Virus record (IMG/VR): IMGVR_UViG_3300043438_001225
Location: 1-20,945 of that record
Origin: a virus
Direction: 5' to 3' (one strand)
Length of the DNA: 20,945 nt
Shown here: positions 2,670 through 20,945 of the stretch, one piece after another
Layout: every line of letters begins with the position of its first letter
Position numbering within the stretch: the stretch's first letter is position 1
The notes under the pieces: model-generated
Told to the model about the DNA's origin: nothing
Database searches by the model: none
What the model saw: the letters and a program-made list of their open reading frames with translations, nothing else
Position numbers and translations under genes: made by a program

Positions 2670-3182
2670 ATGTGTGATTGCTGTAAAAAAATAATAACTA
2701 GAATTGGAGTAGAAGGTCCAACAGGTCCCCAAGGACCTCAAGGTATTCAAGGAATACAAGGAGAAGTAGGACCAATAGGTCCAGAAGGTGTACCAGGACC
2801 AGAAGGTATTTGTGCAATACTTGCTGTATCAGGTTCTTTTGCTAAAGGTGATGCTGATGCAGGATTACTTTTTCAAAGTACATCAATACCTGGTGGTATT
2901 GGAGGTACATTTCTTGTTGAATTAGAATATTATATTCGAGTAGTAGATCCTATGCCTGGACAAATTACTACAACATTAGTAAAAAATGGAATGGTTGCAA
3001 TGATGAATCCAAATACTACTCATGAACAAAATTGGGTAATAACAGTAGATGCAGAAAATCCTTTTTTTACATATACTCATAGTGCAGTTTTAGTTTTAAC
3101 AGCTAGTGATGTTGCAGGATTTATGATAACAACTACTGCAGCAGGAGTTAATGGATTATTAAAAATAACTAAAATATCTTAA
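2670..3182 (+). CDS. Collagen-like fibre protein with N-terminal Cys motif (170 aa)
   Basis: The protein begins MCDCCKK, then from about residue 15 to 47 runs a Gly-X-Y collagen-like stretch (GPTGPQGPQGIQGIQGEVGP and onward), and ends in a ~120-residue beta-rich domain. Collagen-like repeats in phage virions form trimeric shafts, so the likely architecture is an N-terminal Cys anchor, a short triple-helical shaft and a globular C-terminal head that could bind host surface structures. The gene is followed after one base by a paralogue-like gene with the same plan (3184-3633). The leader is AT-rich with no Shine-Dalgarno site. That it is a virion fibre is inferred from the repeat and from its position; the receptor is unknown. 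Confidence 0.7.
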   Translation: MCDCCKKIITRIGVEGPTGPQGPQGIQGIQGEVGPIGPEGVPGPEGICAILAVSGSFAKGDADAGLLFQSTSIPGGIGGTFLVELEYYIRVVDPMPGQITTTLVKNGMVAMMNPNTTHEQNWVITVDAENPFFTYTHSAVLVLTASDVAGFMITTTAAGVNGLLKITKIS

Positions 3183-3183
3183 T

Positions 3184-3633
3184 ATGTGTGGAAATTGTGA
3201 TGGGATAATAATCCCAATAGGTCCTACTGGACCAATAGGTGCTCCTGGTACTAATGGTACAAATGGCACTAACGGTACAAATGGTACTAATGGTATTAAT
3301 GGTCGTAATGCTTTTAAAGTAATTAAACAATATTTTACAGATGATGTTGAACAAACAATTACTATAACACAAACAGAGTTAACAAATTGTGAGGGTATAC
3401 CTGCAGGATGTTTTATTGCTCCAGCAGTAGCAAGTATTGCAGATATACATGTGCAAGCTTGGTTTCTTGTTAATGGTCCATTAACTTATTGGCAACTATT
3501 AACAAACTCAACTACACTAGGTACATATAATTTTAATTGTACAATTGATGCTTCTGGTGGAGTTACAGATGGAAATATTACAATAACTACAGGAGGATCA
3601 ATTGGAATGTTTAGAATTGTAATTTTAGGATAA
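3184..3633 (+). CDS. Collagen-like fibre protein with Gly-Thr-Asn repeats (149 aa)
   Basis: It starts MCGNCDG (a CxxC pair at residues 2 and 5), followed by a Gly-X-Y stretch at about residues 13-42 that becomes a nearly pure Gly-Thr-Asn repeat, and ends in a ~105-residue beta-rich domain (FLVNGPLTYWQLLTNST region). Architecture and position mirror the preceding gene, suggesting a duplicated pair that may form homo- or heterotrimers. It begins only one base after the previous stop, so the two are probably translated together. It is likely a surface fibre or decoration; the repeat length may vary between relatives by slippage. There is no transmembrane or signal segment. Confidence is high for a collagen-like virion protein and low for its exact place on the particle. 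Confidence 0.7.
   Translation: MCGNCDGIIIPIGPTGPIGAPGTNGTNGTNGTNGTNGINGRNAFKVIKQYFTDDVEQTITITQTELTNCEGIPAGCFIAPAVASIADIHVQAWFLVNGPLTYWQLLTNSTTLGTYNFNCTIDASGGVTDGNITITTGGSIGMFRIVILG
3247..3309 (+). repeat. Tandem 9-bp repeat encoding Gly-Thr-Asn
   Basis: Seven consecutive 9-base units of the form GGT-ACT/ACA-AAT, with the last two units changed to Gly-Ile-Asn and Gly-Arg-Asn. It encodes the second half of the collagen-like shaft of the 149-residue protein. Synonymous changes between units show it is not a fresh duplication. Confidence 0.85.
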
Positions 3634-7653: not shown

Positions 7654-7680
7654 ATGAAAAATATATTTAAATATGGTTAA
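7654..7680 (+). pseudogene. Eight-codon remnant, possible original 5' end of the holin gene
   Basis: ATG at 7654 reads MKNIFKYG and then a stop at 7678-7680. The GIY-YIG start (7673) lies inside it. The peptide resembles the first residues of the protein at 8340 (MNKLIKNYWKP), as if the endonuclease gene had been inserted after the first codons of that gene. It is short, so the resemblance could be chance. Confidence 0.35.
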
Positions 7681-8347
7681 AATATACACATTATCTCATC
7701 CAGTAACCAAAGAAGTTAGATATGTGGGCAAAACTATAAATGAACTATCTAAAAGATTATCCCAACACTTGTGTGATAAAAAAATAAATAAAAGAGTAAG
7801 TTGGATTAAATCTTTAAAAAAACAAGGATTAACTCCAGAAATTGAATTGTTAGAAATAATAAATAAAAACAATTGGAAAAATGAAGAGATTTTTTATATT
7901 GGATATTTTAAAATGATAGGTTTTAAATTAGTAAATATGACTGAAGGTGGAGATGGTATAGAAATGACTTCTGAAATAAAGAAAAAAATATCAATAAAAC
8001 ATTTAGGAAAAATTCTTTCTCAAGAAACTAAAGATAAAATAAGTAAATTAAATTTAGATAATAAAATTGGTTATTATAGTAAATTTAATAGTAATGATGC
8101 TAAATTATTAAGAATTAAAAATAAAGAAAAAAGAGATAATAAAAAACCAAAATCTTTTCAATATAAAAAAATAATACAATTAGATTTAAACAATAACAAA
8201 ATAAAGATATGGGATTCAATTTGCAAGTGTTGTACTACTAATAATTGGTCTAAAGGAAATTTAATAAAAGTATGTAAAAATCATATAAGAAAAGATGGTT
8301 CTAAGTGTGTAACAGCCTACGGGTATAAATGGAAATATTATGAATAA
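7673..8347 (+). CDS. GIY-YIG homing endonuclease
   Basis: A 224-residue site-specific DNA endonuclease of the free-standing GIY-YIG type. The N-terminus holds the family motifs in altered form, IYTL (residues 4-7) for 'GIY' and RYVGKT (16-21) for 'YIG', followed by R28 in KRLSQHL. A glutamate/glycine block (NMTEGGDG) lies near residue 90. After it comes a helical DNA-binding motif of NUMOD3 type (the LSQETKDKISKL region, about 118-129), and the C-terminus (IIQLDLNNNKIKIWDSI... and the Trp/Lys-rich GYKWKYY end) matches the NUMOD1/IENR1 pattern. It is more AT- and lysine-rich than its neighbours and splits the lysis cassette, so it is a selfish insertion. Its end overlaps the next gene by 8 bases. 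Confidence 0.85.
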   Translation: MVKIYTLSHPVTKEVRYVGKTINELSKRLSQHLCDKKINKRVSWIKSLKKQGLTPEIELLEIINKNNWKNEEIFYIGYFKMIGFKLVNMTEGGDGIEMTSEIKKKISIKHLGKILSQETKDKISKLNLDNKIGYYSKFNSNDAKLLRIKNKEKRDNKKPKSFQYKKIIQLDLNNNKIKIWDSICKCCTTNNWSKGNLIKVCKNHIRKDGSKCVTAYGYKWKYYE

Positions 8348-11036: not shown

Positions 11037-14000
11037 ATGGAAAGTGTAAACTCATTTTCAGGGGGCATGTCCTCTGATGCATCTAAACTAATACAACAAA
11101 ATGGTACATACTTACAAGCTTTAAACTTTAGAGGTTTAACAGAGTTAGGTGGATCTAATGGTTCATTAGTTAATATTAAAGGTAATGATTGTGGAATAAC
11201 ATTTCCAAACTTACAAGCAGTTTATAAATTAATTGTTATTCCAGGAACTTGGAATGAAGGTACAAACACTGTAATCTTTACAATTAATGGAGTAACAGTA
11301 AGTTCATTAAATATTACAAATTTTACAACAGGTCTTGAGATTTATAATTTTATAGTAAGTAAATATACTAATTGTTATCAAAATCAAACAGTTGCTACAA
11401 AAACATTCTCTATAGCTTATGATAATAATTATATAGTATTTTATCAACAACCTGTATATCAAAGTTGTTCTCCAATAGAGTCAGTGCCTATTATAATAAG
11501 TACTCTTCATTCTGAAACTATTACAGCATTACCAACTTTACAATTTACAAATGGTGCTACTAATACATTAACACAAGATTTAATTAATCCTTATGTTAAA
11601 GGTGTAACTTCAGATTTAATTATACCAATTGGTTCAACATTTATTTTAGATGATATTTATATATTTACTGCTAAAGATGATCCAACTTTTGGTTTAGGTA
11701 ATGGTTTAAATCCATTAGTTGAAAAACCAGAAAATGATTCACTTACTGCTACTGGCACTATTTGGAAATTATCAATAGACGACATTACTAAAAGTCATAC
11801 ATTAACTTTACTTTATTCTAATCGTTTAGATTTTACAAAATATCATCCAATACCACCTTCAGCTACTTCAGGTAGATATGAAAGTGCTACTATTAAACGT
11901 ATTTATTGGTCAGATAATTATAATAAGATTAGAACAGTTAATACTGCTATGCCACAATTAATGGCACTAGATCCAACTATTTTAAATGTAATGCCTAAAG
12001 TAGAATATACTCAAGGTATTTTAAATTCAATTATAACAGGTACTTTACCTGCAGGTTGTTATCAAATGGCTTATAGATTGTCTAAAGTATTAGGTTCAGT
12101 AACTAATTTTTCAGAATTAACTAATCCTGTATATTTAACAGCTAATGCTGAAGGTACACCTTTTCAAGATTACGTTGGTAATTTAGGTGCTTCAACTAAA
12201 GGTATAAAATGGACACTTACAAACTTAGATACTAACTATGATCAAATAGAATTTGTAGTAAGTTATCGTGATTCTTCTTCTGCTATTCCAGTAATAACTT
12301 CTGTAGGTGTTAAAATACTTACAACAGACATGTCTTTATTATATACTACAGAAGCAGATCCTGATTTTACTACAATAACATTAGATGAGTTCTTATTATT
12401 TAATGGAACATTTACACATGCTAAAACATGTGATACAAAAGATAATAGATTATTTTGGGGTAATGTAAGAACACCTCAAAAGTCTTTAGACTCTTTTGAT
12501 GCAAGAGCTTTTAGAGCAAATTTTGCAGGAAATGTTCTTCTTACAAATTTAACAGTACCTCAAATATATTCAACATGGCAAGAAGCTGCTTTAACAGATG
12601 TAACAAATGATTCTATAAATGAATATTATGATATAAATGGTAATTATTCAGCAAATGCTTGTTATTTAAAACCAGGTAGTTCTACAATATTAGGTGGTAA
12701 AGGTACTAATATATCATATGAATTTGGTACTACAAGTTTTAACTCAGATAATGATTTAAGTATTGATAGTTCTGAAAACTGGGATATATCTAGATCTGGT
12801 GCACCATTTAGGATGAATGATTATACAACAGGTAATCCTACAGGTTTTATTTATGACTATCCTCAAAATGGTGGACTTCAAGCAATGAAGCAACCTGAAA
12901 GAACTTCTTTATTTAGAGGATTTCAACATGAAGAAATTTATAGATTTGGTATTCAGTTCTTTGATAAAGAAGGTAATCCTTATTTTACAAATTGGATAGG
13001 TGATATTAAAATGCCTAGTTATGGTGATTACAATAATAATCCAGATACTTTTGCAGCATCTAATGGAATTTCTGATTTTAGATTATCTTTTGCTACTAGT
13101 TATTCTAAACAATATGAACAATCATTATATATTAAATTTACAGTTAATGTAGGTGACGTACAAGAGTTAATTAGTGGTTATGAAATAGTTAGAGTTAAAA
13201 GAACTAATTCTGATAAAACAATTCATGGAGTTGGGATGATAAATCCTGTAGTAACTACAATAATGAATTATGATGGTGGTGAAGTAATGCTTCCTGCAGG
13301 TTGGGATAGTAGAAGAGGAATATATGCACAACCAATAATTCCAGGAGTTCCTTTTGTTAATAAAAGATATTATACACCATATCCTGGTCAAGGTGAAATT
13401 GAAACTTTAAATATTGATTGGGATACTGATAATGCAGTTAATTCTGAAACAGGTAAAATAAAATCATTTGATTGTTGGGACTTTGATGCAGGACTAAGAC
13501 CTTCATTTACTGCTGGTGATAAGATATTAGTTAGAAGTCAATTAAAATGTGTTAATTATAGAGGTGGATCTTATCCTGGTTCTTCTAGTTATAGAATGTA
13601 TTTTGGACCAAAAGGAAATACTTCATCTCCTCCTACTTCTGTAGAAGTACCTTTAAATAATGCAATGATTGATAATGGATTAACTCCTCCATTTAGTATA
13701 GAATCAAATAATGATTCAGTTACTGAACCATTCTTTATTATGAAAATGTTAGATAATACAATGTATTGTAATTATCAAGATTTTTTAAGTACAAGTTCTT
13801 ATGATTATACTGTTACTGAAGGTAAATTTATTGCAGGTAATACTTCAGATACTGTTGGTGGTAGAAATGTATTAAACTATGGTAAAGATATAGATAGTAC
13901 ATCAATAGTGGGTGGAGCAACAGGAAATCCTTGTTTTGGTAAACAGGCTTTATTTGTACATTTAGATAGAGGTTTATATACAAGTGATTATGGATGTGGT

Positions 14001-15803
14001 GCATATGATACAGAATTTAAAAAATTATTAGCTTTATACTATAAACCTAATTATAACATATATGGTGGACCAACTTATGTTGATCGTACTACTAATGAAT
14101 ATATTCCATGTGGAGAATATATAGCTACATCATTTAACAACTTACCTATTAATATAGGAAATATAACTCCATTAACATTTAAGTGTTATGGTGGTGATGT
14201 ATTTACAACAATTTATGATTCAATGAAAACTGTAAAAACAGTTACTAATGGATCAGAATATTGGGTTTACGAATACAATAGTTCTGGTGTACCATCTTTT
14301 CCACCTATTCATGAACGTAAAGCAATGTTTAGTACTATATTTTATTACCCTGGTACTAGTGTATATAATACTGAATTAAGAACTGGATTTCATACTAACA
14401 AAGATTTAACTGCAACTAACGGAGCATTTGGTTGGAATGATGAAGATGGTTACGAATATCAAAGTTATTGTAATGCTGAAAATAATACTAAGGTTTATTT
14501 TCCTAAACCATTAAACTTTGAATCAGCTTATGAGTGGAATAATCGAATATATTTTTCAGAAGTTAAATATAATAATGAATTATTAGATTCTTGGTCACAA
14601 TATCTTACAAATAATTTTTATGATGTAGAAGGTAACTATGGTCCAATTAATGCATTAGTATCTCTTAAAGAAAATATGTATTATATACAACAAAGAGGTG
14701 TAGGTATGTTAATGATTAATCCTGTATCTTTAGTTAAAGATCAATTAGGTACACCTATTAAATTAGGTGGTAGTGATGAAACTATTCAAAAACATTATTA
14801 CAAATCTATTGATTCAGGAACTTCTCATCAATGGTCAGTTTACAGATCTCAAAGTGTTATTACTTTTGTAGATGTTAGACATAAAAAGATTTATCTATTT
14901 GATGGTGAATCAGTTACTCCATTATCTGATTTAAAAGGTCAGAGAAATTTTACTATTAAAAGATTACATTCTGAGTTATTAAAAAATGATAACCCTATTA
15001 TTAACAAGGGTGTATTAGTAACTTATGATTACTATCATAATGAATTCTTATATACATTTAATAATATTAAAGTTTTAAGTAAAGATCCATTTGTATTAAA
15101 TACAACAGATAATGAAAATCTTACTTTAGCTTATTCAGAACCAACTTCTAGTTTTTCAAGTATGTATTCATTTGTACCTAATCTTTATATTAATTCAAAT
15201 AAATATTTAATTAGTACTGTAAATACTTCAAATACTAGAGATGGTATTGAAATACATAATAAGTTATGGTTTCATAATTATGGAAAATATGCAAACTTTT
15301 ATGGTACACAATATCCTAGTACTTTAAAATATATTGTTAATGATAATCCTGTATTTACTAAAGTATATGATGACTTAGTAATGACAACTGAAGCAATAGA
15401 TGACAATGTAGAATGGTCAGATGATTTAAATATTTATCCTGGTTCTCCTACTAATCCTTTATATCCTGATGATGTTAATATTAAAGATTCAACATTTGAT
15501 AAAGTTAGATTTTATAATCAATATCAAAATACTGATTGGACTCCATTAGATCCTTCAATAGGTGGTAATCTTAGAAAAGTTGAACAAGGATTTAATTTAC
15601 AAATACCTAGAAACAAATTTAACTATGATGTTTATCCAGTATCAACATCATCTATCTTTGACCCTTCTAAACTTACAAAGATTAAGTTTGGTGATAGATT
15701 AAGAGATAAGTGGGTAAACATAGACCTAAGTTATAATAATGTCTTAGGATTAAGATTTATAGTACACAATATTAAAACATTATTTAGAATATCTGATCGT
15801 TAA
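11037..15803 (+). CDS. Tail stabilization / muzzle-type protein (1588 aa)
   Basis: The N-terminus MESVNSFSGGMSSDASKLIQ and the following ALNFRGLT...GSLVNIKGND pattern are the recognisable start of the large 'stabilization protein' (compared with P22 gp10, and corresponding to the muzzle of crAss001). Such proteins form the tip of the short tail and close it until infection. Length (1588) is in the usual range. The whole protein is rich in beta strands, Asn, Tyr and Thr; KTCDTKDNRLFWGNV near residue 463 and GVGMLMINPVSLVKDQLGTP near 1221 fit beta-propeller-like blades. It lacks a signal or membrane segment. It follows the ring proteins directly and is followed by a terminator. Function as a tail component is well supported by context; gating is known only from relatives. 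Confidence 0.8.
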   Translation: MESVNSFSGGMSSDASKLIQQNGTYLQALNFRGLTELGGSNGSLVNIKGNDCGITFPNLQAVYKLIVIPGTWNEGTNTVIFTINGVTVSSLNITNFTTGLEIYNFIVSKYTNCYQNQTVATKTFSIAYDNNYIVFYQQPVYQSCSPIESVPIIISTLHSETITALPTLQFTNGATNTLTQDLINPYVKGVTSDLIIPIGSTFILDDIYIFTAKDDPTFGLGNGLNPLVEKPENDSLTATGTIWKLSIDDITKSHTLTLLYSNRLDFTKYHPIPPSATSGRYESATIKRIYWSDNYNKIRTVNTAMPQLMALDPTILNVMPKVEYTQGILNSIITGTLPAGCYQMAYRLSKVLGSVTNFSELTNPVYLTANAEGTPFQDYVGNLGASTKGIKWTLTNLDTNYDQIEFVVSYRDSSSAIPVITSVGVKILTTDMSLLYTTEADPDFTTITLDEFLLFNGTFTHAKTCDTKDNRLFWGNVRTPQKSLDSFDARAFRANFAGNVLLTNLTVPQIYSTWQEAALTDVTNDSINEYYDINGNYSANACYLKPGSSTILGGKGTNISYEFGTTSFNSDNDLSIDSSENWDISRSGAPFRMNDYTTGNPTGFIYDYPQNGGLQAMKQPERTSLFRGFQHEEIYRFGIQFFDKEGNPYFTNWIGDIKMPSYGDYNNNPDTFAASNGISDFRLSFATSYSKQYEQSLYIKFTVNVGDVQELISGYEIVRVKRTNSDKTIHGVGMINPVVTTIMNYDGGEVMLPAGWDSRRGIYAQPIIPGVPFVNKRYYTPYPGQGEIETLNIDWDTDNAVNSETGKIKSFDCWDFDAGLRPSFTAGDKILVRSQLKCVNYRGGSYPGSSSYRMYFGPKGNTSSPPTSVEVPLNNAMIDNGLTPPFSIESNNDSVTEPFFIMKMLDNTMYCNYQDFLSTSSYDYTVTEGKFIAGNTSDTVGGRNVLNYGKDIDSTSIVGGATGNPCFGKQALFVHLDRGLYTSDYGCGAYDTEFKKLLALYYKPNYNIYGGPTYVDRTTNEYIPCGEYIATSFNNLPINIGNITPLTFKCYGGDVFTTIYDSMKTVKTVTNGSEYWVYEYNSSGVPSFPPIHERKAMFSTIFYYPGTSVYNTELRTGFHTNKDLTATNGAFGWNDEDGYEYQSYCNAENNTKVYFPKPLNFESAYEWNNRIYFSEVKYNNELLDSWSQYLTNNFYDVEGNYGPINALVSLKENMYYIQQRGVGMLMINPVSLVKDQLGTPIKLGGSDETIQKHYYKSIDSGTSHQWSVYRSQSVITFVDVRHKKIYLFDGESVTPLSDLKGQRNFTIKRLHSELLKNDNPIINKGVLVTYDYYHNEFLYTFNNIKVLSKDPFVLNTTDNENLTLAYSEPTSSFSSMYSFVPNLYINSNKYLISTVNTSNTRDGIEIHNKLWFHNYGKYANFYGTQYPSTLKYIVNDNPVFTKVYDDLVMTTEAIDDNVEWSDDLNIYPGSPTNPLYPDDVNIKDSTFDKVRFYNQYQNTDWTPLDPSIGGNLRKVEQGFNLQIPRNKFNYDVYPVSTSSIFDPSKLTKIKFGDRLRDKWVNIDLSYNNVLGLRFIVHNIKTLFRISDR

Positions 15804-18521: not shown

Positions 18522-20693
18522 ATGGGATTAAATAGATTTAGTACAGTAGGTACAAGTGAGTATACTCCACAACATGTACCATTACCTTTTGATACAATAT
18601 CAAAATTAGGTGAACAAGTAAAACTTGAGCATGATACTGCTGATGCACAATTAGCTGCAAAAAAAACTGATATTCAAGGTGGATTAGCTACACAAGAACA
18701 TGCTAAAGCGTTAAATGCTAAAAAGAATACTATGTTACAAGAAGCTCAAACTAGAGCTGAAAAAACAGGTAACTATGGTAGATTAACTCAAGATATTGTA
18801 GAAATAGGAAGTGTTGTTCAAAATGATCCTTTATTTCAAGGTATCCAAAGAGATATTGCACAAACAGAAAGAGCAAATAAACAAAGATTTGATCCTAATC
18901 TTCAATATACTGTTCAAGGATTTGCTGATGAAAAAGGTAATGTTAAACAATTAGGTGTTGATCAACCATTTGATGAAAGTTATTATAATGTAGTAGCTCC
19001 TGGAAATACTAATAAAGAATATAATCCTTTATTTGAACAAATAAAACCAATACTTACAAAAGCATATGAAGATCCTGTTACTAAAATTTACACTGACGCA
19101 AATGGTAACACGCATACTGAAATTTTACAAGAAGGTGTTGAAGCAGAAGGATTAAAAAGAGAAAGAGTAAGACAAACATTAGCAGAATATATTAAAAATG
19201 ATCCTAATGCATTAAATCAACCATCTAGATTTTATTCTGATGCTTTAAGTAAAAAACAAAGAGGTATTGGTCTTACTAAAGATGAACACTTAGATGAAAT
19301 TGCAAATTCTTGGTTAGGTGAATATTATAATCAAAAAGATATTCAAAAGTTTTCTGAAAAAATAACTCCTGCAAAAAAAGGTTCAACATCTGATGGTGGA
19401 GGTACTGGTACTGAAGGAGAAGGAATACCAAATGCTTATACTGGAATGTTAGATGCTCCAGTAGTTACTGATGAAAACTTAGATGGTTTATATAGAAAAA
19501 ATGATGATGGTTCACACACAGTTCCTTTAGAAGGATCTATTATGAACTTTGCTGAAGTTTCAAATCTTAGTCCTGAAGAAAATAAAGTAATGACTTTAGG
19601 TCAAACACAAAGTAAATTAAAATCTAAATTTAAAGTTAGTGATGTTGATGATGCTAAAGAAGTTTTAGAAAAACAAAATCCTAAATTTAAATATGATGCA
19701 GGTGTTTCAGGTGAAAGGTATATGACAGAAGATGGAAAAAAAGCTGTACTTATTACTACTTTCCCAAGTATAAATTATACTAAAGAAGAATTAGCTCAAA
19801 CAGGAGTAAAATCATTAGATGAAATAAGTAACATTCTTCTTAAATCAAGTAGTGATTATAGTTTCTTAAAAGAATCTGCAAAAGCAGATGGAATAGATAT
19901 TGAATCTCCTAAGTTTCAAGAAACTTACAAAAAAGGTTTAGGTAAATATACAGAAGAAGTAAATGCTGAATTAGGTAATATTTTAGAAATAGGAGGAGAA
20001 GGTAATTTTGTTGTTGATCAAGGAAATAATAGAATAAATGTTGATGGTAAACCTTTTCTTTCAGGTAAAGTTATTAAGACACATGATCAATTAACCGCAG
20101 CTTTTGATCAAGTAGGTAAAGGACACAATGATTGGGATCCTACTGATCTTAGAGATGATTGGGAAGATATTTATTTAAAACCAAATGGTTCAGGTTATGG
20201 TTTAATTAAACCTTACGGTACAGATAAAGATGGAAAGCAATTATATGCTATAAGTATTAAAAAAGAAATACCTGTTTCTAGAGCAATAAATAAAACATAT
20301 AATAAAAATGTTTATACTTCTGAATATACTAAAAATGCAAATAATTTAGATAAATCATTTGATGAATTTGCAGGAAATAATTTTAGAAGAAGAGAACAAG
20401 AAGTATATGAGTCAATATATACTAATAATAAAAAATCATTTGATGAAAATTTAAATAAACAAATAGAAAGTAATAGTCAATATAAGCCACAATTAACTAC
20501 AATATTAAATGAAATTAATGCTGAAAAAGATCCTAATAAGAAAAAAGAAAAAATAATTAATTTTAGTTTAATTTTAAAACAAGGAGGAGCAGAAGATATA
20601 ATTAAATCTTATACTGAAGCTTCACAACCTACTACAGAGGGAAAGTCACAGGGGGGTTGGTCACAAACACCAGCAACTCCCCTAAGCAAGTAA
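18522..20693 (+). CDS. Internal virion (cargo-type) protein, probably extended by -1 frameshift (723 aa in frame)
   Basis: The N-terminus MGLNRFSTVGTSEYTPQHVP followed by LPFDTISKLGEQ and a long helix (AQLAAKKTDIQGG onward) is a pattern I associate with giant internal virion proteins of crAss-like phages. The body is helical and charged, with a Gly/Ser-rich hinge (KKGSTSDGGGTGTEGEGIPN) near residues 286-305 and a linker near the C-terminus (SQPTTEGKSQGG). It stops at 20693, but the -1 frame is open from 20618 to the window end, with coding character and no ATG near its beginning, and the G6 run at 20651-20656 would allow a shift between them. The 723-residue product is therefore probably only the first part of a larger protein, or the assembly has lost one G. 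It is likely to be stored in the head and ejected. Confidence 0.7.
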   Translation: MGLNRFSTVGTSEYTPQHVPLPFDTISKLGEQVKLEHDTADAQLAAKKTDIQGGLATQEHAKALNAKKNTMLQEAQTRAEKTGNYGRLTQDIVEIGSVVQNDPLFQGIQRDIAQTERANKQRFDPNLQYTVQGFADEKGNVKQLGVDQPFDESYYNVVAPGNTNKEYNPLFEQIKPILTKAYEDPVTKIYTDANGNTHTEILQEGVEAEGLKRERVRQTLAEYIKNDPNALNQPSRFYSDALSKKQRGIGLTKDEHLDEIANSWLGEYYNQKDIQKFSEKITPAKKGSTSDGGGTGTEGEGIPNAYTGMLDAPVVTDENLDGLYRKNDDGSHTVPLEGSIMNFAEVSNLSPEENKVMTLGQTQSKLKSKFKVSDVDDAKEVLEKQNPKFKYDAGVSGERYMTEDGKKAVLITTFPSINYTKEELAQTGVKSLDEISNILLKSSSDYSFLKESAKADGIDIESPKFQETYKKGLGKYTEEVNAELGNILEIGGEGNFVVDQGNNRINVDGKPFLSGKVIKTHDQLTAAFDQVGKGHNDWDPTDLRDDWEDIYLKPNGSGYGLIKPYGTDKDGKQLYAISIKKEIPVSRAINKTYNKNVYTSEYTKNANNLDKSFDEFAGNNFRRREQEVYESIYTNNKKSFDENLNKQIESNSQYKPQLTTILNEINAEKDPNKKKEKIINFSLILKQGGAEDIIKSYTEASQPTTEGKSQGGWSQTPATPLSK

Positions 20694-20945
20694 GTTACAC
20701 TGGTGGTATTAGAGATTTAACAAAAACAGTTGTAGTTGATGGTAAAAAAATAAACCCAATTAAAAGGTTTGATAATCCTGTAGATGCGTATAATGATATT
20801 TATCACGATATACATTTAAAACTTAATGGTGGTTCAAGTTGGGTAAAACCTGAAACTACATTAGAAGGTTATATTTCTAGATTTGCACCTAAAGAAGATA
20901 AGAATGATCCTAAATCATATACTCAACAAATGATTACAAGATTAA
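20618..20945 (+). CDS. Continuation of the cargo protein in the -1 frame (3' end outside window)
   Basis: This frame is open from 20618 (after TGA at 20615) to the window edge. From 20699 it reads TGGIRDLTKTVVVDGKKIN, then FDNPVDAYNDIYHDIHLKLN and KPETTLEGYISRFAPKEDKN, and ends in ITRL. The paired 'F-x-N-P...L-N/G-G' and 'L-x-x-Y-I-x-x-(F/W)-A-P-x-x-D-x-N-D-P' motifs recur in internal virion proteins and lytic-enzyme-bearing phage proteins, so the coding assignment is strong. The first in-frame ATG is only at about 20930; a TTG at 20657 is the only plausible separate start. A fused product via GGGGGGT is more likely, joining SQGG to LVTNTSNSPKQ. Confidence 0.65.
20651..20682 (+). promoter_or_regulatory. 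G-run/C-run hairpin at the presumed slip site
   Basis: GGGGGGTT (20651-20658) can pair with AACTCCCC (20675-20682) over 8 pairs, with one G-T wobble, and GGT/ACC (20659-20661, 20669-20671) can pair inside the loop. It is the strongest GC pairing in this part of the window. It contains the presumed slippery site instead of lying after it, so it does not match the standard -1 stimulator spacing. Confidence 0.5.

Follow-up and report, generated by a model that had tools for sequence, protein, structure and literature searches.

Several described systems resemble the arrangement reported here. In phage lambda, a −1 frameshift in the tail chaperone genes G/GT yields two products, one short and one long, that share their start (PMC7618472, PMC5009743); the slip site is the heptamer G_GGA_AAG (PMC7618472), which is highly shift-prone in Escherichia coli (PMC5009743). 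In T7/T3 gene 10A/10B and in the capsid genes of phiEco32-like phages and Privateer, a structural gene ends in a −1 frameshift, by which some copies of the protein receive a C-terminal extension (PMC5009743, PMC7881722), and GGGAAAG has been reported for the Privateer capsid gene as well (PMC7881722). Some tailed phages apparently have no stimulatory signal (PMC5009743). The pseudoknot-stimulated −1 frameshifts of RNA viruses and of some insertion sequence (IS) elements combine a slippery heptamer, a short spacer and an H-type pseudoknot. In the crassvirus phi-crAss001, the genes of C1 (gp45) and C2 (gp46), two cargo proteins that are present in the virion, come after the muzzle gene (PMC10172136). 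We analysed an IMG/VR virus record of 20,945 bases (IMGVR_UViG_3300043438_001225; the whole stretch is called the window below), and sequence comparison together with RNA structure prediction indicated that its 723-codon gene, which lies in the second cargo position, very likely carries a −1 programmed ribosomal frameshift signal made up of G_GGA_AAG and a pseudoknot. The signal is canonical in build and, as far as seen, specific to this lineage.

The 723-codon open reading frame (ORF; 18522-20693, plus strand) ends at UAA 20691-20693, and a −1 frame runs on the same strand from 20618 to the window edge at 20945. The first-pass annotation had described both frames in this way, stating that the second lacked a usable ATG, and this was confirmed: no start-like codon (ATG/GTG/TTG/CTG) occurs in the −1 frame except TTG 20657 and, further on, ATG 20930. 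The overlap of the two frames, likewise noted before, measured 76 nucleotides (nt). Searching with the window −1 frame, we found two further IMG/VR contigs, L002 and L003, in which an upstream ORF of 735 and 731 residues stops at the same point and a homologous −1 continuation of about 925 and 590 codons follows (L002:8001-10778 and L003:8001-9773). Stop-free −1 stretches within other coding regions of these AT-rich genes were on average 4-5 codons long, the longest being 21-31, so that the open −1 frame of the relatives is far beyond chance. The upstream protein of the window is 48-49% identical to those of L002 and L003, and the first 96 residues of the extension are about 85% identical. A coding and conserved frame with no start of its own before 20930 is thus present, which we propose is decoded only after a shift.

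Two X_XXY_YYZ heptamers stand in the 0 frame inside the overlap, both of them conserved in all three genomes: G_GGA_AAG at 20639-20645 and G_GGG_GGT at 20651-20657 (plus strand). The latter had been taken in the first-pass annotation as the only good slip site, with the junction SQGG-LVTNT. That assignment is probably wrong; G_GGA_AAG, 12 nt upstream, is the better candidate by heptamer type, spacing, structure and tRNA re-pairing, and the true junction is probably ...EGK-VTGGLVTNTSNSPK. The window, L002 and L003 share GGGAAAG and the block CAGGGGGG...CCCCTAA without any difference. The codon before GGA AAG differs (GAG for Glu in the window, GTG for Val in both relatives) and each time ends in an uncommon G, the usage being 9.7% for GAG in the window and, for GTG, 0.7% in L002 and 1.4% in L003. 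When the stretch was recoded synonymously, with the 0-frame protein kept and codons drawn by usage, GGGAAAG with an equally stable structure arose in only 2 of 4000 trials.

A stimulatory structure at a short distance was predicted behind this heptamer. A 4-nt spacer (20646-20649) leads into an H-type pseudoknot with a stem 1 of 10 base pairs (bp), whose 5′ arm (AGGGGGGUUG, 20650-20659) includes the run of Gs formerly read as the slip site and whose 3′ arm (CAACUCCCCU) lies at 20674-20683. Loop 1 has 8 nt (20660-20667), stem 2 has 6 bp (5′ arm CACCAG, 20668-20673; 3′ arm CUGGUG, 20700-20705), loop 2 is absent, and the A-rich loop 3 of 16 nt (20684-20699) contains the 0-frame UAA; all these elements are on the plus strand. 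The stem 1 hairpin and stem 2 each appeared, separately, in ordinary folding, and the 10+6 bp pseudoknot can form in the window and in both relatives. From the heptamer through stem 2 the three genomes differ, the window against its relatives, only in the spacer (3 of its 4 bases) and in loop 3 (4 bases), the slip site and both stems being invariant. Among 62 in-frame heptamers in the window ORFs, the 40 nt behind GGGAAAG were the most stable (−16.4 vs −9.7 kcal/mol). When 246 in-frame heptamers, drawn from the ORFs that were tested in four records, were ranked by summed stacking, the three copies of the site came first at −30.9 kcal/mol and the runner-up reached −15.6 kcal/mol. Furthermore, when the downstream sequence was shuffled 300 times, a stem 2 of equal strength arose in only 5 cases.

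On this model, ribosomes translating the 723-codon gene would meet the pseudoknot starting 4-5 nt past G_GGA_AAG, and a fraction of them would slip back by one base, tRNA-Gly re-pairing from GGA to GGG and tRNA-Lys from AAG to AAA. Shifted ribosomes would read on as ...TTEGK-VTGGLVTNTSNSPKQVSYTGG... into the long −1 frame (590-925 codons in the relatives), and unshifted ones would stop 15 codons later at the UAA. The earlier proposal that programmed −1 frameshifting yields a short and a long form of the protein in the second cargo position is thereby strongly supported by the conserved frames, the heptamer and the predicted structure. Compared with lambda G/GT, the present case has a much longer extension and a predicted pseudoknot; moreover, the proteins made in lambda act as chaperones in tail assembly and do not occur in the mature virion (PMC5009743), whereas the present gene stands in the cargo block. 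T7/T3 and the phiEco32-like/Privateer phages extend the major capsid protein, in contrast to the 590-925 codons added here to a gene for a putative internal protein. The signal differs from those of RNA viruses and IS elements in that the heptamer is of the bacterial type, with AAG in the A site, the genome is that of an AT-rich double-stranded DNA phage, and the spacer has only 4-5 nt.

Several points weigh against this interpretation. Slippage in the cell, and its rate, are what we infer. Only three genomes are available, L002 and L003 are near-identical in the stretch of the signal and no stem base pair varies, so that covariation could not be assessed. The 4-nt spacer is slightly under the usual 5-9 (PMC5009743). 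Downstream of the signal the identity between the window and its relatives is unusually high, and part of the conservation may therefore reflect recent exchange. Finally, the two −1-frame residues between G_GGA_AAG and the run of Gs differ (VT vs EP), while the 0 frame keeps Ser-Gln there through different serine codons; this difference would also fit slippage at the run of Gs, although a two-residue linker may vary. A related observation concerns codons 36-68 of the −1 frame (window 20760-20860, RFDNPVDAYNDIYHDIHLKLNGGSSWVKPETT), where no synonymous difference was found between the window and L002, as against about 21% of the conserved codons in the upstream gene; either recent exchange or a further constraint at the nucleotide level would account for it.

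Since the residues upstream of G_GGG_GGT are not conserved in the −1 frame and Ser-Gln is kept in the 0 frame, −1 slippage at 20651-20657, giving SQGG-LVTNTSNSPK, was kept as an alternative, though an unlikely one. This heptamer, too, is in frame in the overlap, invariant and unique in each genome. However, a ribosome positioned on it would have stem 1 already opened, no stem with a stacking energy of −8 kcal/mol or stronger is found at a distance of 3-9 nt behind it, and the remaining sequence folds at only −7.0 to −9.7 kcal/mol. By established decoding rules, the A-site tRNA reading GGU would also have to re-pair on GGG, and the spacer and the stems are better explained by G_GGA_AAG than by the run of Gs. 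The same SQGG product would arise if RNA polymerase slipped on the six Gs and added one G in part of the mRNA, for which an invariant homopolymer run is indeed present. A six-base run is short for productive transcriptional slippage, and the conserved upstream GGGAAAG, its spacing and the pseudoknot would be left unexplained; we regard this as very improbable. The claim is directly testable, because each candidate slip site predicts its own tryptic peptide: slippage at G_GGA_AAG would give VTGGLVTNTSNSPK (computed [M+2H]2+ 687.865) in the window and EPGGLVTNTSNSPK (700.854) in L002/L003, and slippage at the run of Gs would give SQGGLVTNTSNSPK (695.352).

It is also conceivable, if still more improbable, that the downstream frame encodes a separate protein, starting in the overlap at TTG 20657 or another non-ATG codon, or by re-initiation after the stop. 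TTG 20657 is conserved, and neighbouring genes in these phages often overlap by a few bases. We compared about 45 abutting or overlapping gene pairs in −1 register from 16 crass-like loci, and only those of the window, L002 and L003 had a long overlap and lacked an ATG or GTG close to the junction. In the other pairs a start codon is present at the stop of the upstream gene or close to it, whereas these three offer only a TTG inside the G-rich element; in the window, TTG 20657 lies directly behind the six Gs and 36 nt ahead of the stop. A distance of 273 nt separates it from the next ATG, which lies beyond the best conserved part, and a separate start would leave GGGAAAG unexplained. The remaining possibility, a G lost in sequencing or assembly from a gene that truly runs in one frame, was raised in the first-pass annotation, and homopolymers are a usual place for such errors. 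Comparison of the run in the relatives showed exactly six Gs (window 20651-20656), not seven, in each of three separately assembled records, with the same early stop, the same −1 continuation and diverged upstream genes. This excludes an assembly error, unless one and the same error had arisen in all three assemblies, and we give it the lowest probability of all. A hairpin that merely occludes the slip and a recombination site formed by the dyad were set aside, because the frameshift also covers the heptamer, the spacer and stem 2.

One of the compared loci, phage cr50_1 (L022, 7197-7838), shows a 46-nt −1 overlap with an AAAAAAA heptamer at 7775 and a fairly stable fold (−13.3) downstream, and the annotated downstream start of this pair is an ATG 48 nt past the stop; a further frameshift is possible there.

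The window is, as judged from its proteins, from a crass-like phage. The 1588-residue protein encoded at 11037-15803 matched phrog_28748 (2e-94), virion structural families and the Crassvirales muzzle/stabilization protein, as well as 108 phage records that came mainly from Crassvirales and other Bacteroidota phages. Behind this muzzle gene follow an 850-residue gene in the first and the 723-residue gene in the second cargo position. The sequence of muzzle, first cargo, second cargo and giant gene is that of phi-crAss001 (PMC10172136), and it places the 723-residue gene in the position of C2 (gp46). The former name "second cargo protein" thus holds as to gene position; no PHROG or phage tblastn match of the 723-residue protein to the C2 (gp46) family, or to any known C2 sequence, was obtained. 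Unlike the window, 12 other crass-like phages have no frameshift extension: the gene in C2 position is one ORF with the giant gene directly next. Among them is L010, which shares the first 40 residues of the upstream protein. Scans of viral sequences and genome contigs with the upstream protein, the −1-frame tail, the C-terminus of that tail and DNA patterns, in which L010 was also met, recovered the signal only in L002 and L003; 11 other IMG/VR matches to the pattern GGGAAAGN{3,7}GGGGGGTTGG were without the frame arrangement and judged to be chance. The literature searched, most subscription journals lying outside its coverage, yielded no report of programmed frameshifting in a crassvirus gene, which is no proof of novelty.

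Because the upstream gene lies in the cargo block, a role as short and long internal protein appears likeliest, and by analogy with the described systems the phage may package both forms of this cargo-position protein in a set ratio. The extension itself gave nothing significant against Pfam, PHROGs and PDB sequences; AlphaFold models of its N- and C-terminal parts had a mean predicted local distance difference test (pLDDT) score of 44-47, and Foldseek with the N-terminal model found no significant match. Its first 96 residues may resemble a phage domain associated with murein hydrolases. The extensions of L002 and L003 form a mosaic, with 92% identity over the first 204 aligned residues, then an unrelated part, and then a C-terminal domain of 28% identity. 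We tentatively suggest, at somewhat less than even odds, that this lineage uses the pseudoknot-driven −1 frameshift to make a minority of ejected cargo proteins of about 1,300-1,650 residues, each with an exchangeable C-terminal module, and that the frameshift rate sets the dose of the delivered domain per virion. If this is true, frameshifting in a gene in cargo position would offer a simple control of the copy number of a large virion-delivered domain. ORF-based annotation splits a frameshifted protein of this kind, and the extension is misplaced or lost.

Two other features of the window were noted. An ORF at 7673-8347, inserted in a group of small genes that precede the structural genes, looks by eye like a GIY-YIG homing endonuclease. 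At 2670-3633, two successive ORFs contain collagen-like Gly-X-Y repeats (GPTGPQGPQG..., GTNGTNGTNG...).
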